From: Rhodococcus sp. (in: high G+C Gram-positive bacteria)
GTDB lineage: Bacteria > Actinomycetota > Actinomycetes > Mycobacteriales > Mycobacteriaceae
Reading direction: 5' to 3'
Assembly (NCBI RefSeq): GCF_023264675.1
Contig: NZ_JAHFVG010000011.1
Location: forward strand, 1-64,000
DNA: 64,000 nt
A program made the translations under genes and the position numbers. The notes beneath the pieces are model-generated. The model saw nothing but the letters and a program-made list of their open reading frames with translations, had not been told where the DNA came from and made no database searches. Of the stretch, positions 6,017 to 59,126 are shown one piece after another. Position 1 is the first letter of the stretch. Each line of letters begins with the position of its first letter.

Positions 6017-9000
6017 GTGCCCGACGCCGTGACAGATACATCCGCCGTGCCCTCCGCTCCGTCGCCGAAGGGTTCAGTGGTGGATCTGCGTTCCCAGGTG
6101 CGTACGACGCGGCTGGTTGCCATCGTCACCGGCCTGCTCGGTGCTTTCCTCGCGATCCTGACGCCGTTCCTACCCGTCGTGCAGACCACCTCGACCATTC
6201 AGTGGCCGGACGCGGGTTCCATCACCGACATCGACGCACCGCTCGTGTCGCAGGCACCGATCGATTTCACCGCGAGCATCCCGTGCTCGGCCGTCGACCG
6301 TCTGCCTGCTTCGGGGGGACTGCTGCTCGCGACCGCCCCCGCTCAGGGTGACGGAGCCGCTCTCAACAGCCTCTTCGTTCGGGTCAGCGAAGGCTCGGTC
6401 GACGTGCTCGACCGCAACGTCGTCGTCGCGTCGGCACCGCGTGCCGACGTCCAGGGTGCCCTCTGTGGCTCCATCGAGATCAACTCGAACATCGACACCA
6501 CCACCGCCGAGTTCACCGGGCTGGTCGACGACAAGGGCAACCCGCGCAGCGGCAGGCTCGACGGCGATCTCCGTCCCCAGGTCGTCGGTCTCTTCACCGA
6601 CCTCGACGGCGCCGCGCCGGCAGGCATGGCCGTCACCATCGACGTCGACTCGCGGTTCTCCTCGACCCCGACGATCCTCAAACTGCTGGCGATGATCCTC
6701 GCGGCCGTCTGCACCGTCATCGCGATGGGAGCACTCGGACGGCTCGACGGCATCGACGGCCGCGGCCACCGCCGCTTCTTCCCCTCGCACTGGTGGAAGT
6801 TCACCGGCGTCGACGTCACCGTCATCGGCGTGCTCGTCGGCTGGCATTTCGTGGGAGCCAACACCTCCGACGACGGCTACCTCCTGACGATGGCCCGTGC
6901 GGCCGAGAAGTCCGGCTACATGGCCAACTACTTCCGTTGGTTCGGCGTTCCCGAGGCGCCGTTCGGGTGGTACTACGACGTCCTCGCTCTCTTCGCCAAG
7001 GTCTCGACCGCCAGCCCGTGGATGCGTCTCCCCGCTCTGATCGCCGCCGTTCTGTGCTGGATGGTCATCAGCCGCGAGGTCGTCCCCCGTCTCGGTCGTG
7101 CCGTCCGCAAATCCAACGTCGCACTCTGGACCGGCGGACTCGTCTTCCTCGCGTTCTGGCTGCCGTACAACAACGGCCTGCGCCCAGAGCCCATCGTTGC
7201 CGTCGGCGCGCTGCTGACGTGGTGCTCGATCGAGCGAGCCATCGCCACCGGACGACTGCTCCCCGCAGCCTCCGCGTTCTTGATCGGCGCCTTCACGCTT
7301 GCCGCGGCGCCGACCGGACTGATGTGTGTCGCGGCTCTGCTCGCCGGTGCACGCCCGATGGCCCGCATCGTCGTTCGCCGTCACCGACTCGTCGGGACCC
7401 TTCCTCTTCTGGCCCCGCTCGCTGCCGCCGGATTCCTCGTCCTCGTCGTCGTTTTCGCCGATCAGACGTACGCGACCGTCATGGAGTCCACGCGCGTGCG
7501 CACCGCCATCGGCCCCAACGAGGCGTGGTACCAGGACTTCCTGCGGTACTACTACCTGTTCGTGCAAACCGTCGACGGCTCGGTGGCACGCCGCTTCGCC
7601 TTCCTCGCGATGCTGCTGTGCCTCTTCACCACCCTGTTCATTCTGTTGCGGCGCAGGCGAGTTCCCGGAATCGCCAACGGTCCGGCCTGGCGCCTCATCG
7701 GCGTCGTGTTCGGAACGATCTTCTTCATGATGTTCAACCCGACCAAGTGGACGCACCACTTCGGCTCGTATGCGGGCATTGCAGGCAGCCTCGCCGCGCT
7801 CACTGCCGTCGCGATCTCGGCGAGCGCCCTGCGATCGCGGCGAAATCGAACGATCTTCCTCGCCGGGCTGATGTTCGTTCTGGCACTGTCGTTCTCGGGA
7901 ATCAACGGGTACTGGTACGTCTCCAGCTACGGAGTCCCGTGGTTCGACAAGACCGTCTCGCTCGCCGGCAACCAGTCCAACACCCTGTTCCTCGTCTTGT
8001 TCGCTGCCACCCTGGCACTGGCCGCCTGGCAGTACCTACGAGAGGGATATGCACCACCTCAACCACGTGCCGGAACCGAACGAGGCAGGCGGATCAAGAA
8101 ATTCGCCGCGGCGCCACTGACCGTCATCGCAGGCCTGATGGTCCTGTTCGAGATCCTCTCCCTGGTCAAGGGCGCGGTATCGCAGTATCCGGCGTACTCG
8201 CTCGCGCGCTCGAACATCCAGTCGCTGACCGGAAACACCTGCGGCCTCGCAAACGACGTGTTGGTGGAATCCGATCCGAACTCCGGAATCCTCAACCCGA
8301 TTCCGGCGTCCTTCGACCCCGAAACCGGTCCGCTCGGCGGCGAGAGCCCGGCGGGCTTCACCCCCAACGGCATCCCCACCGACCTGAGCGCCGACGCCGT
8401 GGAAGTCAAACCCGGACAGGGCAACACCGATCAGCAGAGCGTCGGACCGGCCTTCGAGGAAGGCCAGAGCTCGGGTACGGGCGGCGGCATCGGAGCACAA
8501 GGCGTCAACGGTTCGACCGCAGCACTTCCGTTCGGACTCGACCCCGCCACCACACCCGTGCTCGGCTCGTACCAATCGAACATCCAGGAACCGGCGTCCG
8601 CGACATCGAGTTGGTACTCACTGCCCGAGCGCTCCGATTCCGCACCGCTCATCGTCATCTCCGCGGCCGGACGCATCCTGTCCTACGACGACACCGGGGC
8701 AATGACCTACGGCCAGTCGCTGCTCGTCGAGTACGGCACTCGCCAGCCCAACGGAACCGTCGACGTCAAGGGCACCTACCTACCGCGCGACATCGGGCCT
8801 GCACCGTCGTGGCGCAACCTCCGCATCCCCATCGCGGACCTACCCGCCGATGCCGACGCTGTCCGCATCGTCGCCAACGACCCCAATCTCACGGGCGATC
8901 AGTGGTTCGCGTTCACGCCGCCGCGGGTCCCGCAGCTCGAGAACCTCAACTCCCTCATCGGCAGCGAACAGCCCGTTCTTCTCGACTGGGCTGTGGGACT

Positions 9001-9328
9001 TCAGTTCCCGTGCCAGCGGCCGTTCGATCACCAATACGGCGTCGCCGAGGTACCCGGATACCGCATCCTCCCCGACCGCCCGCTCGCCGTCAGCTCCACC
9101 GACACCTGGCAGTCCGGCGACAACGGTGGCCCTCTCGGGTGGAGCGAACTGCTCGCCAAACCGGTCACAGTCCCGACGTACCTCAACCGCGACTGGGCCC
9201 GAGACTGGGGCTCTCTCGAACGGTACGAGCAGTACTACCCGGACGCCGTGCCCGCGACCGTCGAGACCGGCGAAGAAACCAGGTCGGGCTTCTGGACGCC
9301 CGGGAACTTGCGGGTGTTCGACAAGTAG
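6017..9328 (+). CDS. Emb-family arabinosyltransferase (second of two)
   Basis: This 1103-residue paralogue of the preceding gene has the same architecture: N-terminal helix, periplasmic domain, GT-C membrane core and C-terminal sugar-binding domain with FPCQRPFDHQYG near the end. The catalytic loop TSDDGYLLTM puts the acidic pair at D285-D286 and the Met306-equivalent at M292. NYFRWFGVPEAPFGWYYD resembles the EmbB/EmbC form, whereas the first copy has an extra residue here (PFGMPYYD). SPWMRLP is intact. The start is GTG 6017, the first start after the in-frame stop. It is the last gene of the plus-strand arabinan cluster, and a pair of palindromes follows its stop codon. Both proteins are expected targets of ethambutol. 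The subtype (EmbA/B/C) is left open. Confidence 0.93.
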   Translation: MPDAVTDTSAVPSAPSPKGSVVDLRSQVRTTRLVAIVTGLLGAFLAILTPFLPVVQTTSTIQWPDAGSITDIDAPLVSQAPIDFTASIPCSAVDRLPASGGLLLATAPAQGDGAALNSLFVRVSEGSVDVLDRNVVVASAPRADVQGALCGSIEINSNIDTTTAEFTGLVDDKGNPRSGRLDGDLRPQVVGLFTDLDGAAPAGMAVTIDVDSRFSSTPTILKLLAMILAAVCTVIAMGALGRLDGIDGRGHRRFFPSHWWKFTGVDVTVIGVLVGWHFVGANTSDDGYLLTMARAAEKSGYMANYFRWFGVPEAPFGWYYDVLALFAKVSTASPWMRLPALIAAVLCWMVISREVVPRLGRAVRKSNVALWTGGLVFLAFWLPYNNGLRPEPIVAVGALLTWCSIERAIATGRLLPAASAFLIGAFTLAAAPTGLMCVAALLAGARPMARIVVRRHRLVGTLPLLAPLAAAGFLVLVVVFADQTYATVMESTRVRTAIGPNEAWYQDFLRYYYLFVQTVDGSVARRFAFLAMLLCLFTTLFILLRRRRVPGIANGPAWRLIGVVFGTIFFMMFNPTKWTHHFGSYAGIAGSLAALTAVAISASALRSRRNRTIFLAGLMFVLALSFSGINGYWYVSSYGVPWFDKTVSLAGNQSNTLFLVLFAATLALAAWQYLREGYAPPQPRAGTERGRRIKKFAAAPLTVIAGLMVLFEILSLVKGAVSQYPAYSLARSNIQSLTGNTCGLANDVLVESDPNSGILNPIPASFDPETGPLGGESPAGFTPNGIPTDLSADAVEVKPGQGNTDQQSVGPAFEEGQSSGTGGGIGAQGVNGSTAALPFGLDPATTPVLGSYQSNIQEPASATSSWYSLPERSDSAPLIVISAAGRILSYDDTGAMTYGQSLLVEYGTRQPNGTVDVKGTYLPRDIGPAPSWRNLRIPIADLPADADAVRIVANDPNLTGDQWFAFTPPRVPQLENLNSLIGSEQPVLLDWAVGLQFPCQRPFDHQYGVAEVPGYRILPDRPLAVSSTDTWQSGDNGGPLGWSELLAKPVTVPTYLNRDWARDWGSLERYEQYYPDAVPATVETGEETRSGFWTPGNLRVFDK

Positions 9329-9365
9329 GGATTGTTTGCTGGGTGGTCTGATCCTCCCTTTTCGG

Positions 9366-9414
9366 CATGAATGGACCATCGCAACGGCTAGACGGTTGTG
9401 GTGGTCCATTCATG
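9366..9414. repeat. 49-bp palindromic repeat, copy 1
   Basis: The left arm is CATGAATGGACCATCGCAAC and the right arm GTTGTGGTGGTCCATTCATG, with a 9-nt centre GGCTAGACG. Pairing of the 20-nt arms is nearly complete (one mismatch and one wobble). The element starts 38 bp after the emb stop. The same element occurs at 9440, 10634, 10708 and 59078. Confidence 0.9.
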
Positions 9415-9439
9415 TTGAGGTGGACGGACTTTCATTCAG

Positions 9440-9488
9440 CATGAATGGACCCTTGTAGCCGCCTGACGGTTGTGATGGTCCATTCATG
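9440..9488. repeat. 49-bp palindromic repeat, copy 2
   Basis: Same length and arms as copy 1. The left arm is CATGAATGGACCCTTGTAGC and the right arm GTTGTGATGGTCCATTCATG. The left arm has diverged in its inner half, so the stem is shorter. It lies exactly 74 bp from copy 1 (start to start), leaving a 25-bp spacer. Both copies are followed by TTGAGGTGGA or CTGAGGTGGA. Confidence 0.9.
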
Positions 9489-9655
9489 CTGAGGTGGAGG
9501 GATCGATCGAACCCCTAGCACCGGTGACCGACAGTTTCGGTTCGATCGACGGTCGGCCAGGGCAAGTTGTCCACAACCCGAGCGAACATCCACAGGTCTG
9601 TCCCCTCGGCCTACTTCGACGAATTCGTGTCGGTCCCTGCTCGCACAGTGCGGTC

Positions 9656-10618
9656 ATGAAGAAGCCGGCATGGGCCAGATCGCCCCAATTACTCCACGAC
9701 CTCAGCACGCACGGGGTTGCAACGCGCGCCCAACTCCGTGAAGCGAAGGTGTCCGACAGCTCACTCACCGCGCGCACCCGACCGGGCGGTCCGTGGCAGC
9801 GCGTGCTCCCGGGCGTCTACCTGTTGCACAACGGATACCCGTCATCGTTGCAACGTTCCATCGCCGCTCTCGCCTACGGCGGCCCCGAATCCGTCGTCAC
9901 CGGTCGAGTCGGATTGGCAGCCTACGGTTACGCAAACGACGCGACGTCGAGCGAAGTGCACATCTTGATCCCGGCAGGTAGCCGTCGGGCATCGAAGTCG
10001 TTCGTGCGCGTGGAACGGACCTGGAGAATGCCCGACGCGATGGAGAAGGGCAGCCTCCGCGTCGCGCCTCTCGTACGCAGCCTCACCGACACCACACGCG
10101 CCGTGAAGACCGACGAACACTGCGTACAGCTCATTGCCGAGGTAGTTCAGCGCGGAGGCGTGACGATCGACGACATCGCACTCGAACTCGCCGAGGGTCC
10201 GCGCCGACACGGCGCTATCAGCAGACGGGTAATCGAGGAACTTCGCGACGACGCCCATTCGGTGGCCGAACTACAAGCTCAGAAGCTGTACGCCGAGAGC
10301 GGGCTGCCGCCGATGCAGCGCAATGTTGCCATCTACACGGAGTCCGGCAGGCTGCTGTGCATCACCGATAATTGGCTCGACATCGGTTTCTGCTGGGAGA
10401 TCGACTCCCTGGCTCATCACTTGTCGCCGGCCGACCACGCCAAAACCATTGCCCGACGCAACGACATGACCGGACACGGATTGATCGTCCTCTCACACCT
10501 GCCGCGGGACATCCGAGACAATCCCGCGAAAGTGCTCGCAGACCTCCAGTCGCACTACACGCTCGCGCTGGATCGGCCGTGTCCGCCGGTGACCGTTACC
10601 CCCCGTAACGACCGTTGA
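9656..10618 (+). CDS. AbiEi-like winged-helix protein with DUF559-like C-terminal domain
   Basis: This 320-residue protein of unknown function starts at ATG 9656 (MKKPAWARSP). The same frame is open back to 9494, but conserved family sequence begins only after this ATG. Residues about 8-60 form a winged-helix domain of the AbiEi-antitoxin type (QLLHDLSTHGVATRAQLREA, then GPWQRVLPGVYLL). A middle domain follows. The C-terminus carries D242, E248, D250 and a following HH (DIGFCWEIDSLAHH), which matches the DUF559/Vsr-like nuclease fold, where a D and an E-x-D precede the histidines. Many actinobacterial genomes hold several such genes without a toxin partner, and none is adjacent here. It is isolated between the emb and accD4 loci and bracketed by two palindrome pairs. 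Nuclease activity is inference. Confidence 0.65.
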   Translation: MKKPAWARSPQLLHDLSTHGVATRAQLREAKVSDSSLTARTRPGGPWQRVLPGVYLLHNGYPSSLQRSIAALAYGGPESVVTGRVGLAAYGYANDATSSEVHILIPAGSRRASKSFVRVERTWRMPDAMEKGSLRVAPLVRSLTDTTRAVKTDEHCVQLIAEVVQRGGVTIDDIALELAEGPRRHGAISRRVIEELRDDAHSVAELQAQKLYAESGLPPMQRNVAIYTESGRLLCITDNWLDIGFCWEIDSLAHHLSPADHAKTIARRNDMTGHGLIVLSHLPRDIRDNPAKVLADLQSHYTLALDRPCPPVTVTPRNDR

Positions 10619-10633
10619 CCGATTCCGTGCTCG

Positions 10634-10682
10634 CATGAATGGACCATCGCAACCGCCTGACCGTTGCCGTGGTCCATTCATG
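10634..10682. repeat. 49-bp palindromic repeat, copy 3
   Basis: The left arm is CATGAATGGACCATCGCAAC (identical to copy 1) and the right arm is GTTGCCGTGGTCCATTCATG. It starts 15 bp after the stop of the winged-helix gene, between two convergent genes. Confidence 0.9.
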
Positions 10683-10707
10683 CGGTCCGGATGCCACAGC
10701 GGTCCAA

Positions 10708-10756
10708 CATGAATGGACCATCACAACCGTCTAACCGTTGCGATGGTCCATTCATG
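10708..10756. repeat. 49-bp palindromic repeat, copy 4
   Basis: The left arm is CATGAATGGACCATCACAAC, the centre CGTCTAACC, and the right arm GTTGCGATGGTCCATTCATG. The 20-nt arms pair at every position, with one G-U wobble. It is 25 bp from copy 3 (74 bp start to start, as in the upstream pair) and 33 bp from the accD4 stop. Confidence 0.9.
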
Positions 10757-10789
10757 CCGAAAGGGGGGGGGAACTACACCAAGCGACGG

Positions 10790-12334
10790 TCAGATCGGCA
10801 GCAGGTGGTGCTTCCGCGGATTCTTGAAGACCTCTTTGTCCTTCAACAACTTCAGCGCCTTCCGGAGCTCGAGGCGGGTGCTCGACGGCTCGATGACGGC
10901 GTCGATGTACCCACGCTCGGCCGCGACCCATGGCGTCGCCACGTGCTCGTTGTAGAAGTTGATGAGCTGCTGACGCACGGCGGGCGCGTTGTCGCCCGCG
11001 GCCGCCAACTGCTTACGGCCGATGATGTTGACGGCACCCTCCGCGCCCATCACAGCGATACGTGCTGTGGGCCAGGCGAAGTTGATGTCGGCACCGAGCT
11101 GCTTGCAGCCCATGACCGCGTAGCCGCCGCCGTACGCCTTGCGGACGACGACGGTGATCTTGGGAACCGAAGCTTCGATGTAGGAGAACAGGAATCGTCC
11201 ACCGCGCTTGATGACGCCGACCTTCTCCTGATCGACACCGGGTAGGAATCCCGGGGTGTCGACGAGGAAGACCAGCGGGATGTTGTAGGCGTCGCAGATC
11301 CGGATGAAGCGCGCGGCCTTGTCCGATCCGTCGGCGTCGAGCGCGCCCGAAAGGTGCATCGGCTGATTCGCCACGATGCCGACCGACTTGCCGTCGACGC
11401 GACTCAGCCCCGTGAGGACGTTCGGTGCGATGCCCGACGACATTTCGTGGAACTCACCGTCGTCGAACAGGCGAAGGATGATGTCGCGCATGTCGTAACC
11501 GGCGTTGTCGGCGTCGGGCATGACCTTGTCCAGCAGAAGATCGGATTCGGTGATCTCCGGCTCCAAGCCGGGGTTCACGACGGGAGGGTCTTCCTGGCAG
11601 CTCGACGGCATGTAGCCGAGGTAGCTACGCACCCACTCGAAGGCAGCTTTCTCGTCGGCCGCGACGTGGTGGACGTTGCCGTACTCGGCCTGCTTGCGTG
11701 CAGACCCGAGGTCGTCGAGGCTGACCTCTTCGCCGGTGACGGACTTGATGACGTCCGGTCCGGTGACGAACATGTACGCCTCTTCGGTGGCGACCACGAC
11801 GTCGGTGTTGATCGGGGCGTAGACGGCGCCGCCTGCGCATTTACCGAGGATCACCGAGATCTGCGGACACATGCCGGACAGCGGCTCGTGACGACGCCCC
11901 AGTTCGGCGTACCAGGCGAGCGAGGTCACCGCGTCCTGCACACGAGCGCCACCGGAGTCGTTGATTCCGACCACCGGGCAGCCGACCCTGATCGCGAAGT
12001 CCATGATGCCGGCGACCTTGCGGCCGAACATCTCGCCGACCGTTCCGCCGAAGACGGTCTGGTCGTGGGAGAAGACGGCGACCGGGCGTCCGTCGACGGT
12101 GCCGTGTCCGGTGACCACGCCGTCGCTGTAGAGCGCCGTCGGGTCGTTCGGGGCTTTGACCAACGCGCCGATCTCGACGAAGCTGCCCGGATCGAGCAGC
12201 ATGTCGATGCGTTGTCGGGCACTGGGAATGCCCTTCTTGGCGCGTTTGGCGACGCCGACCTCACCTGCCGGTTCCTTGGCAAGTTCGAGATTGGCCCGCA
12301 GGTCGGCCAACTTTTCGGCGGTGGTACCAGTCAA
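10790..12334 (-). CDS. accD4: AccD4, acyl-CoA carboxylase beta (carboxyltransferase) subunit
   Basis: This 514-residue carboxyltransferase subunit works with a biotinylated alpha subunit encoded elsewhere. It carboxylates the long-chain acyl-CoA that becomes the alpha branch of mycolic acid and is condensed by Pks13. It aligns almost end to end with the M. tuberculosis Rv3799c family: [20 protein letters not shown] near the N-terminus, [28 protein letters not shown] (an oxyanion-hole glycine region), and [15 protein letters not shown] in the C-terminal half. The start is an unusual TTG at 12334, three nucleotides after the pks13 stop, which implies translational coupling. The N-terminal residues [10 protein letters not shown] fit the family, so this start is favoured over later ones. 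It is the last gene of the fadD32-pks13-accD4 operon. Palindrome copies 3 and 4 lie beyond its stop. Confidence 0.97.
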
Positions 12335-59077: not shown

Positions 59078-59126
59078 CATGAATGGACCATCACAACGCC
59101 TAGCCGGCTTGAATGCGCCATTCATG
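59078..59126. repeat. 49-bp palindromic repeat, copy 5
   Basis: The left arm CATGAATGGACCATCACAAC is identical to copy 4, and the right arm CTTGAATGCGCCATTCATG is more diverged but keeps the outer CCATTCATG. It lies between convergent genes, 32 bp from the permease stop at 59158. It is a single copy here, with no partner 74 bp away. Confidence 0.85.

Follow-up and report, generated by a model that had tools for sequence, protein, structure and literature searches.

The REP and BIME families of palindromic repeats are usually regarded as mobile and place-changing. The BIMEs of Escherichia coli have short and long linkers and are located 3' of genes; binding by gyrase, Pol I or IHF is reported of BIME/REP elements, and gene conversion is said to have been proposed for REPs. 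In the available part of one source, BIMEs are described as short, dispersed and regularly spaced palindromes, which are protein binding sites made of alternating units (PMC2817692). The REPINs of Pseudomonas, which occur together with RAYT, are intergenic palindrome doublets at preferred distances, and 93% of the pairs are inverted according to the accessible portion of PMC3116915. The CGTC-tagged REPs are palindromes downstream of genes, found in convergent and unidirectional gaps and lacking a dedicated transposase, as described in the available sections of PMC3733652; the main text of that paper contains 0 mentions of Rhodococcus, Mycobacterium or Actinobacteria. A Rhodococcus family of the sort reported here was not described in the literature searched on repeats, uptake words and terminators, as far as the accessible parts of these sources go.

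The window (the whole stretch of 64,000 nucleotides analysed) comes from Rhodococcus, a genus with biotechnology use. The initial annotation had described four 49-bp palindromes in it as two pairs, and both coordinates and distances were confirmed exactly; the start-to-start distance is 74 bp in pair 1 and in pair 2. The palindromes, a further copy and the neighbouring genes are as follows.

6017..9328, + strand: arabinosyltransferase gene (embB-like) that precedes pair 1.
9366..9414, - strand (assigned from the loop core): first 49-bp palindrome of pair 1, soon after the embB stop codon.
9415..9439, no strand: 25-bp spacer of pair 1, akin to the other spacers after orienting.
9440..9488, orientation ambiguous (- in one assignment, + in another): second 49-bp palindrome of pair 1, with a left arm of the CCCTTGTAGCC type.
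9656..10618, + strand: gene for a 320-aa protein between pair 1 and pair 2, found beside accD4 in 18 of the 20 relatives fetched.
10634..10682, + strand: first 49-bp palindrome of pair 2, with convergent genes on either side.
10683..10707, no strand: 25-bp spacer of pair 2.
10708..10756, + strand: second 49-bp palindrome of pair 2, with the end of the accD4-like gene 34 bp away.
10790..12334, - strand: accD4-like carboxyl transferase gene, running towards pair 2.
59078..59126, - strand: fifth copy in the window, a single 49-bp element of the same family, with convergent genes on either side.

Pair 1 has embB before it and the 320-aa gene after it, both on the same strand, i.e. a co-directional context; pair 2 lies between the 320-aa gene and the convergent accD4-like gene. 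The 320-aa protein shares 49-84% identity among relatives and has no Pfam or NCBIfam match. The arms of the four palindromes had been said to pair over up to 20 bp. The paired stretches measure 20, 22 and 23 bp (roughly 90% pairing) in three elements, and the fourth pairs perfectly over 16 bp. The 12-mer CATGAATGGACC, with at most one mismatch, has 9 matches in the window against a shuffle mean of 0.21. In the fifth copy, one arm is of the ATGGCGC type, which is also present in relatives.

These palindromes are part of a dispersed family, wider than first reported. In the 6.38-Mb window genome (hereafter G000; other G numbers denote relatives), 35 palindromes of exactly 49 bp were found with at most three mismatches, compared with 0 in the reversed control, and the exact 12-mer CATGAATGGACC occurs 52 times, compared with once in the reversed control. 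The 12-mer is rare outside the palindromes. A profile search of the stretches fetched around the 12-mer matches gave 37 elements in G000, and an alignment-based model gave 74 matches in the whole genome when both strands were counted. A pure chance origin is therefore ruled out by the 12-mer, 49-bp palindrome and window shuffle and reversal controls. The 49-bp unit is quasi-palindromic and comprises a pair of inverted half-sites together with a loop core of the TCTGACCG type. A copied block with conserved flanks, which might have explained the second pair, was not seen; the outer flanks of the clusters differ beyond a short T-rich or CCGAAA stretch.

Other palindromes were also observed. Rearranged variants, CWTGAATGGTCCATTCATG-N11-CATGAATGGACCATTC with a short palindrome per arm, are present at gene ends (L005:2995-3043 and L017:5656-5704). 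A second dispersed family, CATGTGAGTGG...ATAGC...CCACTCACATG, occurs at L055:14036-14081 (G000:C69:78036-78081) and has species spellings in regions of G034, G007, G028 and G008, several of which are flanked by GCTTCGC/GCGAAGC-like letters. Moreover, a long palindrome GTTGACAGTGTGCTGTCAGC...GCTGACAGCACACTGTCAAC at L058:13106-13152 (G000:C69:137106-137152) has relatives in regions of G034 and G028, and looks like an operator or recombination site.

The family is located 3' of genes, and divergent gaps are avoided. Gene context was assigned by a crude codon-score ORF caller that overlooked the 320-aa gene in part of the genomes. On this basis, 237 elements in 19 genomes comprise 111 in convergent gaps, 105 with a single sense strand, 5 in divergent gaps and 11 inside a called ORF; the background gaps of at least 60 bp (n=317) include 65 convergent and 78 divergent ones. 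Of the 23 clusters of G000, the caller put 15 between convergent genes, 7 between co-directional ones, 1 within an ORF and 0 between divergent genes; pair 1 is wrongly among the 15 convergent clusters and is really co-directional, the 320-aa gene having been overlooked. Most elements start no more than about 40 bp past a stop codon. Housekeeping genes have the palindromes at their ends; the flanking genes with NCBIfam matches include those for serine hydroxymethyltransferase, the glutamate synthase small subunit, dihydroxy-acid dehydratase, methionyl-tRNA ligase and topoisomerase I. That the flanked genes form a regulon was rejected; among the 20 + 5 proteins scanned, the matching ones are mixed housekeeping proteins and some match nothing. 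Strong clustering at the origin was likewise rejected, as only a modest ori-proximal excess was found in G028 and G010 (KS p 0.006 and 0.014; p 0.07 and 0.15 in a half-chromosome test), and the location of core genes may account for it.

The regular spacing of the window pairs recurs elsewhere. When pair spacings were tabulated across the genome and its relatives, preferred values returned. The 78 neighbour distances below 200 bp in the DNA covered from the 19 genomes include 74 bp 40 times, 64 bp 11 times, 65 bp 6 times and 75 bp 3 times (64/65 bp making up 17 of the 78), and the remainder are rarer values; two 30-bp distances were taken for two readings of one palindrome. For example, the 14 pairs of G000 have spacings of 74 bp (8), 75 bp (1) and 65 bp (5). 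In G028, which has other arm sequences, the values are 74 bp (15), 75 bp (2), 64 bp (2) and 67 bp (1), and in G010 they are 74 bp (10) and 64 bp (1). The pair spacing is 74 bp in most species sampled and 63-64 bp in the group of G008, G015 and G025. Neighbours are mostly arranged head to tail, with the same orientation in 69 of the 78 cases, although orientation is weakly defined in near-perfect palindromes.

The rarer values tend to agree with 74 bp in helical phase. Species compared at one and the same locus have spacings about a turn apart (65/74/64, 65/74 and 64/74). Among the spacings outside 63-65 and 74-75 bp, counted once per orthologous group, 14 of 17 lie within a quarter turn of the 74-bp phase at a period of 10.5 bp (p ~0.006; two of the 14 are 76 bp), in a test weakened by the relatedness of the species and by several values (95-100) that come from one orthologous array. 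When unique distances were tested less strictly, 1 of 20000 random sets was as good. A period of 10.0-10.5 bp fits best and one of 11 bp less well, in better agreement with B-DNA than with an RNA duplex. Distances of 67, 99 and 100 bp are out of phase, and the phasing is imperfect, since 65 bp corresponds to about 6.2 turns and not to a whole number.

The spacers had been described as not alike. This is true of a raw reading of the + strand; once the spacers are oriented by the loop, however, a consensus emerges and unrelated spacers are ruled out. The mean pairwise identity of the loop-oriented 25-bp spacers (n=19, some from orthologous loci) is 0.41, compared with 0.275 in the null and 0.30 as the largest null value, and within G000 (n=8) it is 0.51 against 0.26 expected. 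Because the spacers have a consensus of their own, the repeat unit extends past the palindrome, 74 bp may be an inherited unit length, and the fixed length is partly shared ancestry of this unit. Pairs could arise or vanish by local duplication or deletion of 74 bp. The proposal that the fixed spacing reflects a protein on one face of the DNA is thus only partly upheld. The spacing does recur genome-wide and across species, and other spacings tend to differ from 74 bp by whole turns, in keeping with such a protein; the shared spacer sequence, the 6.2 turns of the 65-bp pairs and the RNA role considered below all count against it.

Relatives of the family were compared at the level of sequence and of place. 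Of the 37 genomes of the genus, 4 (G000 among them) have palindromes that differ from CATGAATGGACC...GGTCCATTCATG by at most one mismatch, and two of the other three match contigs of Rhodococcus sp. G-MC3 and KRD197. At orthologous gaps, other species have dialects of their own: CATCGATGG in G007, CTTGAATG...CATTCAAG in G028, G010 and G006, and GTCAATGGACC...GGTCCATTCAC in G008 and its kin. A gap-free alignment of 48 hand-picked elements from several dialects has 49 columns, six of them invariant. The model of these 48 elements (E 0.001) matched 30 of the 37 genus genomes and none of the other 7; among 201 genomes drawn from the bacterial family, 17 had matches, 7 of these belonging to four other genera, with a maximum of 26 matches per genome. 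The accD4 gap has no element in G004, and in G026 and G003 it has palindromes that were not grouped by the profile. In the post-embB gap of G029 and G032 (L046 and L048), tandem copies, three to four in number and nearly identical, recur about every 95-100 bp and are a recent local amplification, and in that of G019 (L042, read reversed) a GC-rich GGGTTTCGG-like repeat upstream of the element is apparently amplified flank DNA.

The places are widely shared. Elements were found at the orthologous place of at least 20 of the 23 G000 clusters in G028, at least 18 in G034 and at least 14 in G007; these are lower bounds and not rates, as the DNA was partly fetched around elements and flanks were found for 21, 19 and 14 clusters, respectively. 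One G034 locus tallied as missing (84290) does have an element. A single orientation is seen in the accD4 gap throughout the six species examined. At the shared places, the orientation relative to G000 is the same in 18 of 18 cases in G034; in G007 (n=14) there are 10 same, 1 reversed and 3 mixed, and in G028 (n=20) 8 same, 7 reversed and 5 mixed. Orientation is therefore not kept everywhere: it holds against G034 and largely against G007, and fails against G028. The mismatch with G028 points to turnover rather than simple change in place; since places are more stable than orientation, replacement at the same place, or flipping via the symmetric form, must be allowed for.

Copies within one genome change in concert into a species dialect. 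The identity at inner positions is 0.73-0.74 among the copies within G028 and within G007, compared with 0.55 and 0.62 (up to 0.63) for their orthologs against G000, all identities in this comparison being raised by the use of the best of elements and orientations. With G034, which shares the dialect of G000, orthologs agree somewhat better than other pairs do (0.79 vs 0.73). Dialect changes affect both half-sites (columns 2/48, 4/46 and 5/45), and the covariation score is 0.261 against 0.139 in shuffles, with 0 of 500 shuffles as high. The counts of pairs altered on both sides (12 vs 11.2) and of pair types (31 vs 28.9) do not stand out from shuffles. Base-pair compensation within genomes was rejected as a general feature, being mostly near chance at the inner arms with few exceptions, such as columns 10/40 in G007 (20 seen, 10.4 expected).

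The dialects have in common their length, outer half-sites, loop core, place and spacing, and for this reason a DNA-bound complex is preferred over an RNA role or a neutral homogenised repeat. The keeping of place while the spelling differs suggests that something in the cell reads the palindromes. We tentatively favour the interpretation, which falls a little short of probable, that they are BIME-like DNA sites at gene 3' ends, bound in helical register by a protein. A putative sequence-specific and probably dimeric DNA-binding protein would sit on each dyad, and the two dyads of a pair, about whole helical turns apart, would face one way. Such a complex might work where transcription ends, as a boundary or as an aid to topology or termination, comparable with what has been proposed for the gyrase-binding BIMEs of E. 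coli. The elements of the window species also fold into strong hairpins at mRNA 3' ends, and these may have a further function as RNA. More speculatively, a candidate trans-acting factor could read the phased pairs of 49-bp dyads at housekeeping 3' ends and co-evolve with its sites, dozens of places being kept as dialect and spacing (by one turn) turn over in concert, in place or by replacement.

Among the rivals, the most serious one, though less probable than the favoured reading, holds that the elements act as RNA. Tandem 3'-end hairpins would end transcription with no need of a U-tract, NusG or Rho perhaps assisting, or would block 3' exonucleases, and in convergent pairs each hairpin would serve the nearer gene. 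The location directly past stop codons agrees with this, as do the fold energies of single elements in the window (-27 to -42 kcal/mol) and the mean fold z of -7.2 in G000 and -7.0 in G007; the hairpins of G021, G029 and G032, however, are weak (-1 to -2). The sense RNA folds better in 9 of 9 G000 elements with one sense strand and was more stable in 16 of 19 elements of a smaller first set, but over all genomes (n=105 single-sense elements) the bias is gone (52 vs 45, p 0.24). A general sense-strand rule was thus rejected, and is kept within this rival because of the 9 of 9 in G000. Convergent pairs of all genomes (n=36) favour the nearer gene, as expected (22 vs 7, p 0.002), although transcription-linked mutation could likewise yield a sense bias. 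A canonical intrinsic terminator was also rejected, as the hairpin is present and the U-tract is not: T-runs of at least 4 occur in 0 of 122 flanks of 61 elements, and of at least 3 within the next 10 nt in 1 of 122; T-runs of at least 4 are, however, rare next to the other hairpins of these regions too (6 of 124). A terminator scan limited to loops of 3-8 called none of the four elements in the two window pairs. No known structured RNA family of Rfam 15 matched at the gathering score in positions 8900-11300 of the window (best E 0.083, 25.8 bits vs a gathering score of 70). Moreover, terminators require neither a common sequence nor a set spacing.

An origin of the palindromes as REP/MITE-like repeats, selfish or neutral, is unlikely. 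A lost or unrecognised transposase would have spread them, gene conversion or overwriting of older copies would have homogenised them within each genome, and the spacing would be no more than an inherited unit. The copies are dispersed, their within-genome identities exceed those of cross-dialect orthologs, each genome has its own spacer consensus, and the mixed orientations in G028 would be expected. Local tandem copies are consistent with such spreading, for example two identical units at C52 and the arrays of G029 and G032, as are the patchy matches in four other genera and the empty accD4 gap of G004. Against this, no Y1 transposase (PF01797), the only type searched, was found in 36 of the 37 genomes, G031 being the one positive, compared with 5 positives among 14 controls. 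The gene is absent from G000, and a RAYT-driven REPIN was rejected on this ground. A plasmid- or phage-borne repeat was rejected as well, pair 2 (137 bp) having no plasmid or phage match at E 1e-5. Neutral spreading also sits poorly with the sharing of at least 20 of 23 places with G028, whose dialect is different, and does not predict phase-related spacings.

A role as DNA uptake or self-recognition words, held in step by a receptor like the DUS dialects of the Neisseriaceae, is highly improbable: species dialects do differ at many loci together, and DUS too form paired inverted words near terminators in the available part of PMC3630211, but about 37 copies are found here against thousands of DUS in the same partial source, the 12-mer hardly occurs outside palindromes, and a fixed 49-bp length and spacing would be needless for uptake.

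Since the places are common to species while the sequences of the copies shift together, function and homogenisation can be separated for study. Orthologous loci with differing dialects and one-turn differences in spacing form a natural experiment; if a binder of the favoured DNA sites exists, the dialects offer a direct route to finding it.

Compared with the described systems, the Rhodococcus family shares with DUS (accessible part of PMC3630211) the species dialects of a repeated word, and DUS also form inverted pairs near terminators; it differs in its few copies, fixed 49-bp dyads and phased pairs, with the 52 exact 12-mers nearly all within palindromes. Like the CGTC-tagged REPs, it consists of palindromes 3' of genes, between convergent or unidirectional genes, and has no dedicated transposase; the CGTC-like letters, however, are in the loop of the Rhodococcus element and not at one end. 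It resembles REPINs in having intergenic palindrome doublets at preferred distances, whereas REPIN doublets are inverted, the Rhodococcus pairs are direct and G000 has no Y1/RAYT gene. The family is closest to REP/BIME, which are also dispersed intergenic palindromic units at gene 3' ends with regular spacing. In contrast to the alternating units of BIMEs (available part of PMC2817692), the Rhodococcus units are 49 bp long, stand head to tail in 69 of 78 cases and occupy places common to species.
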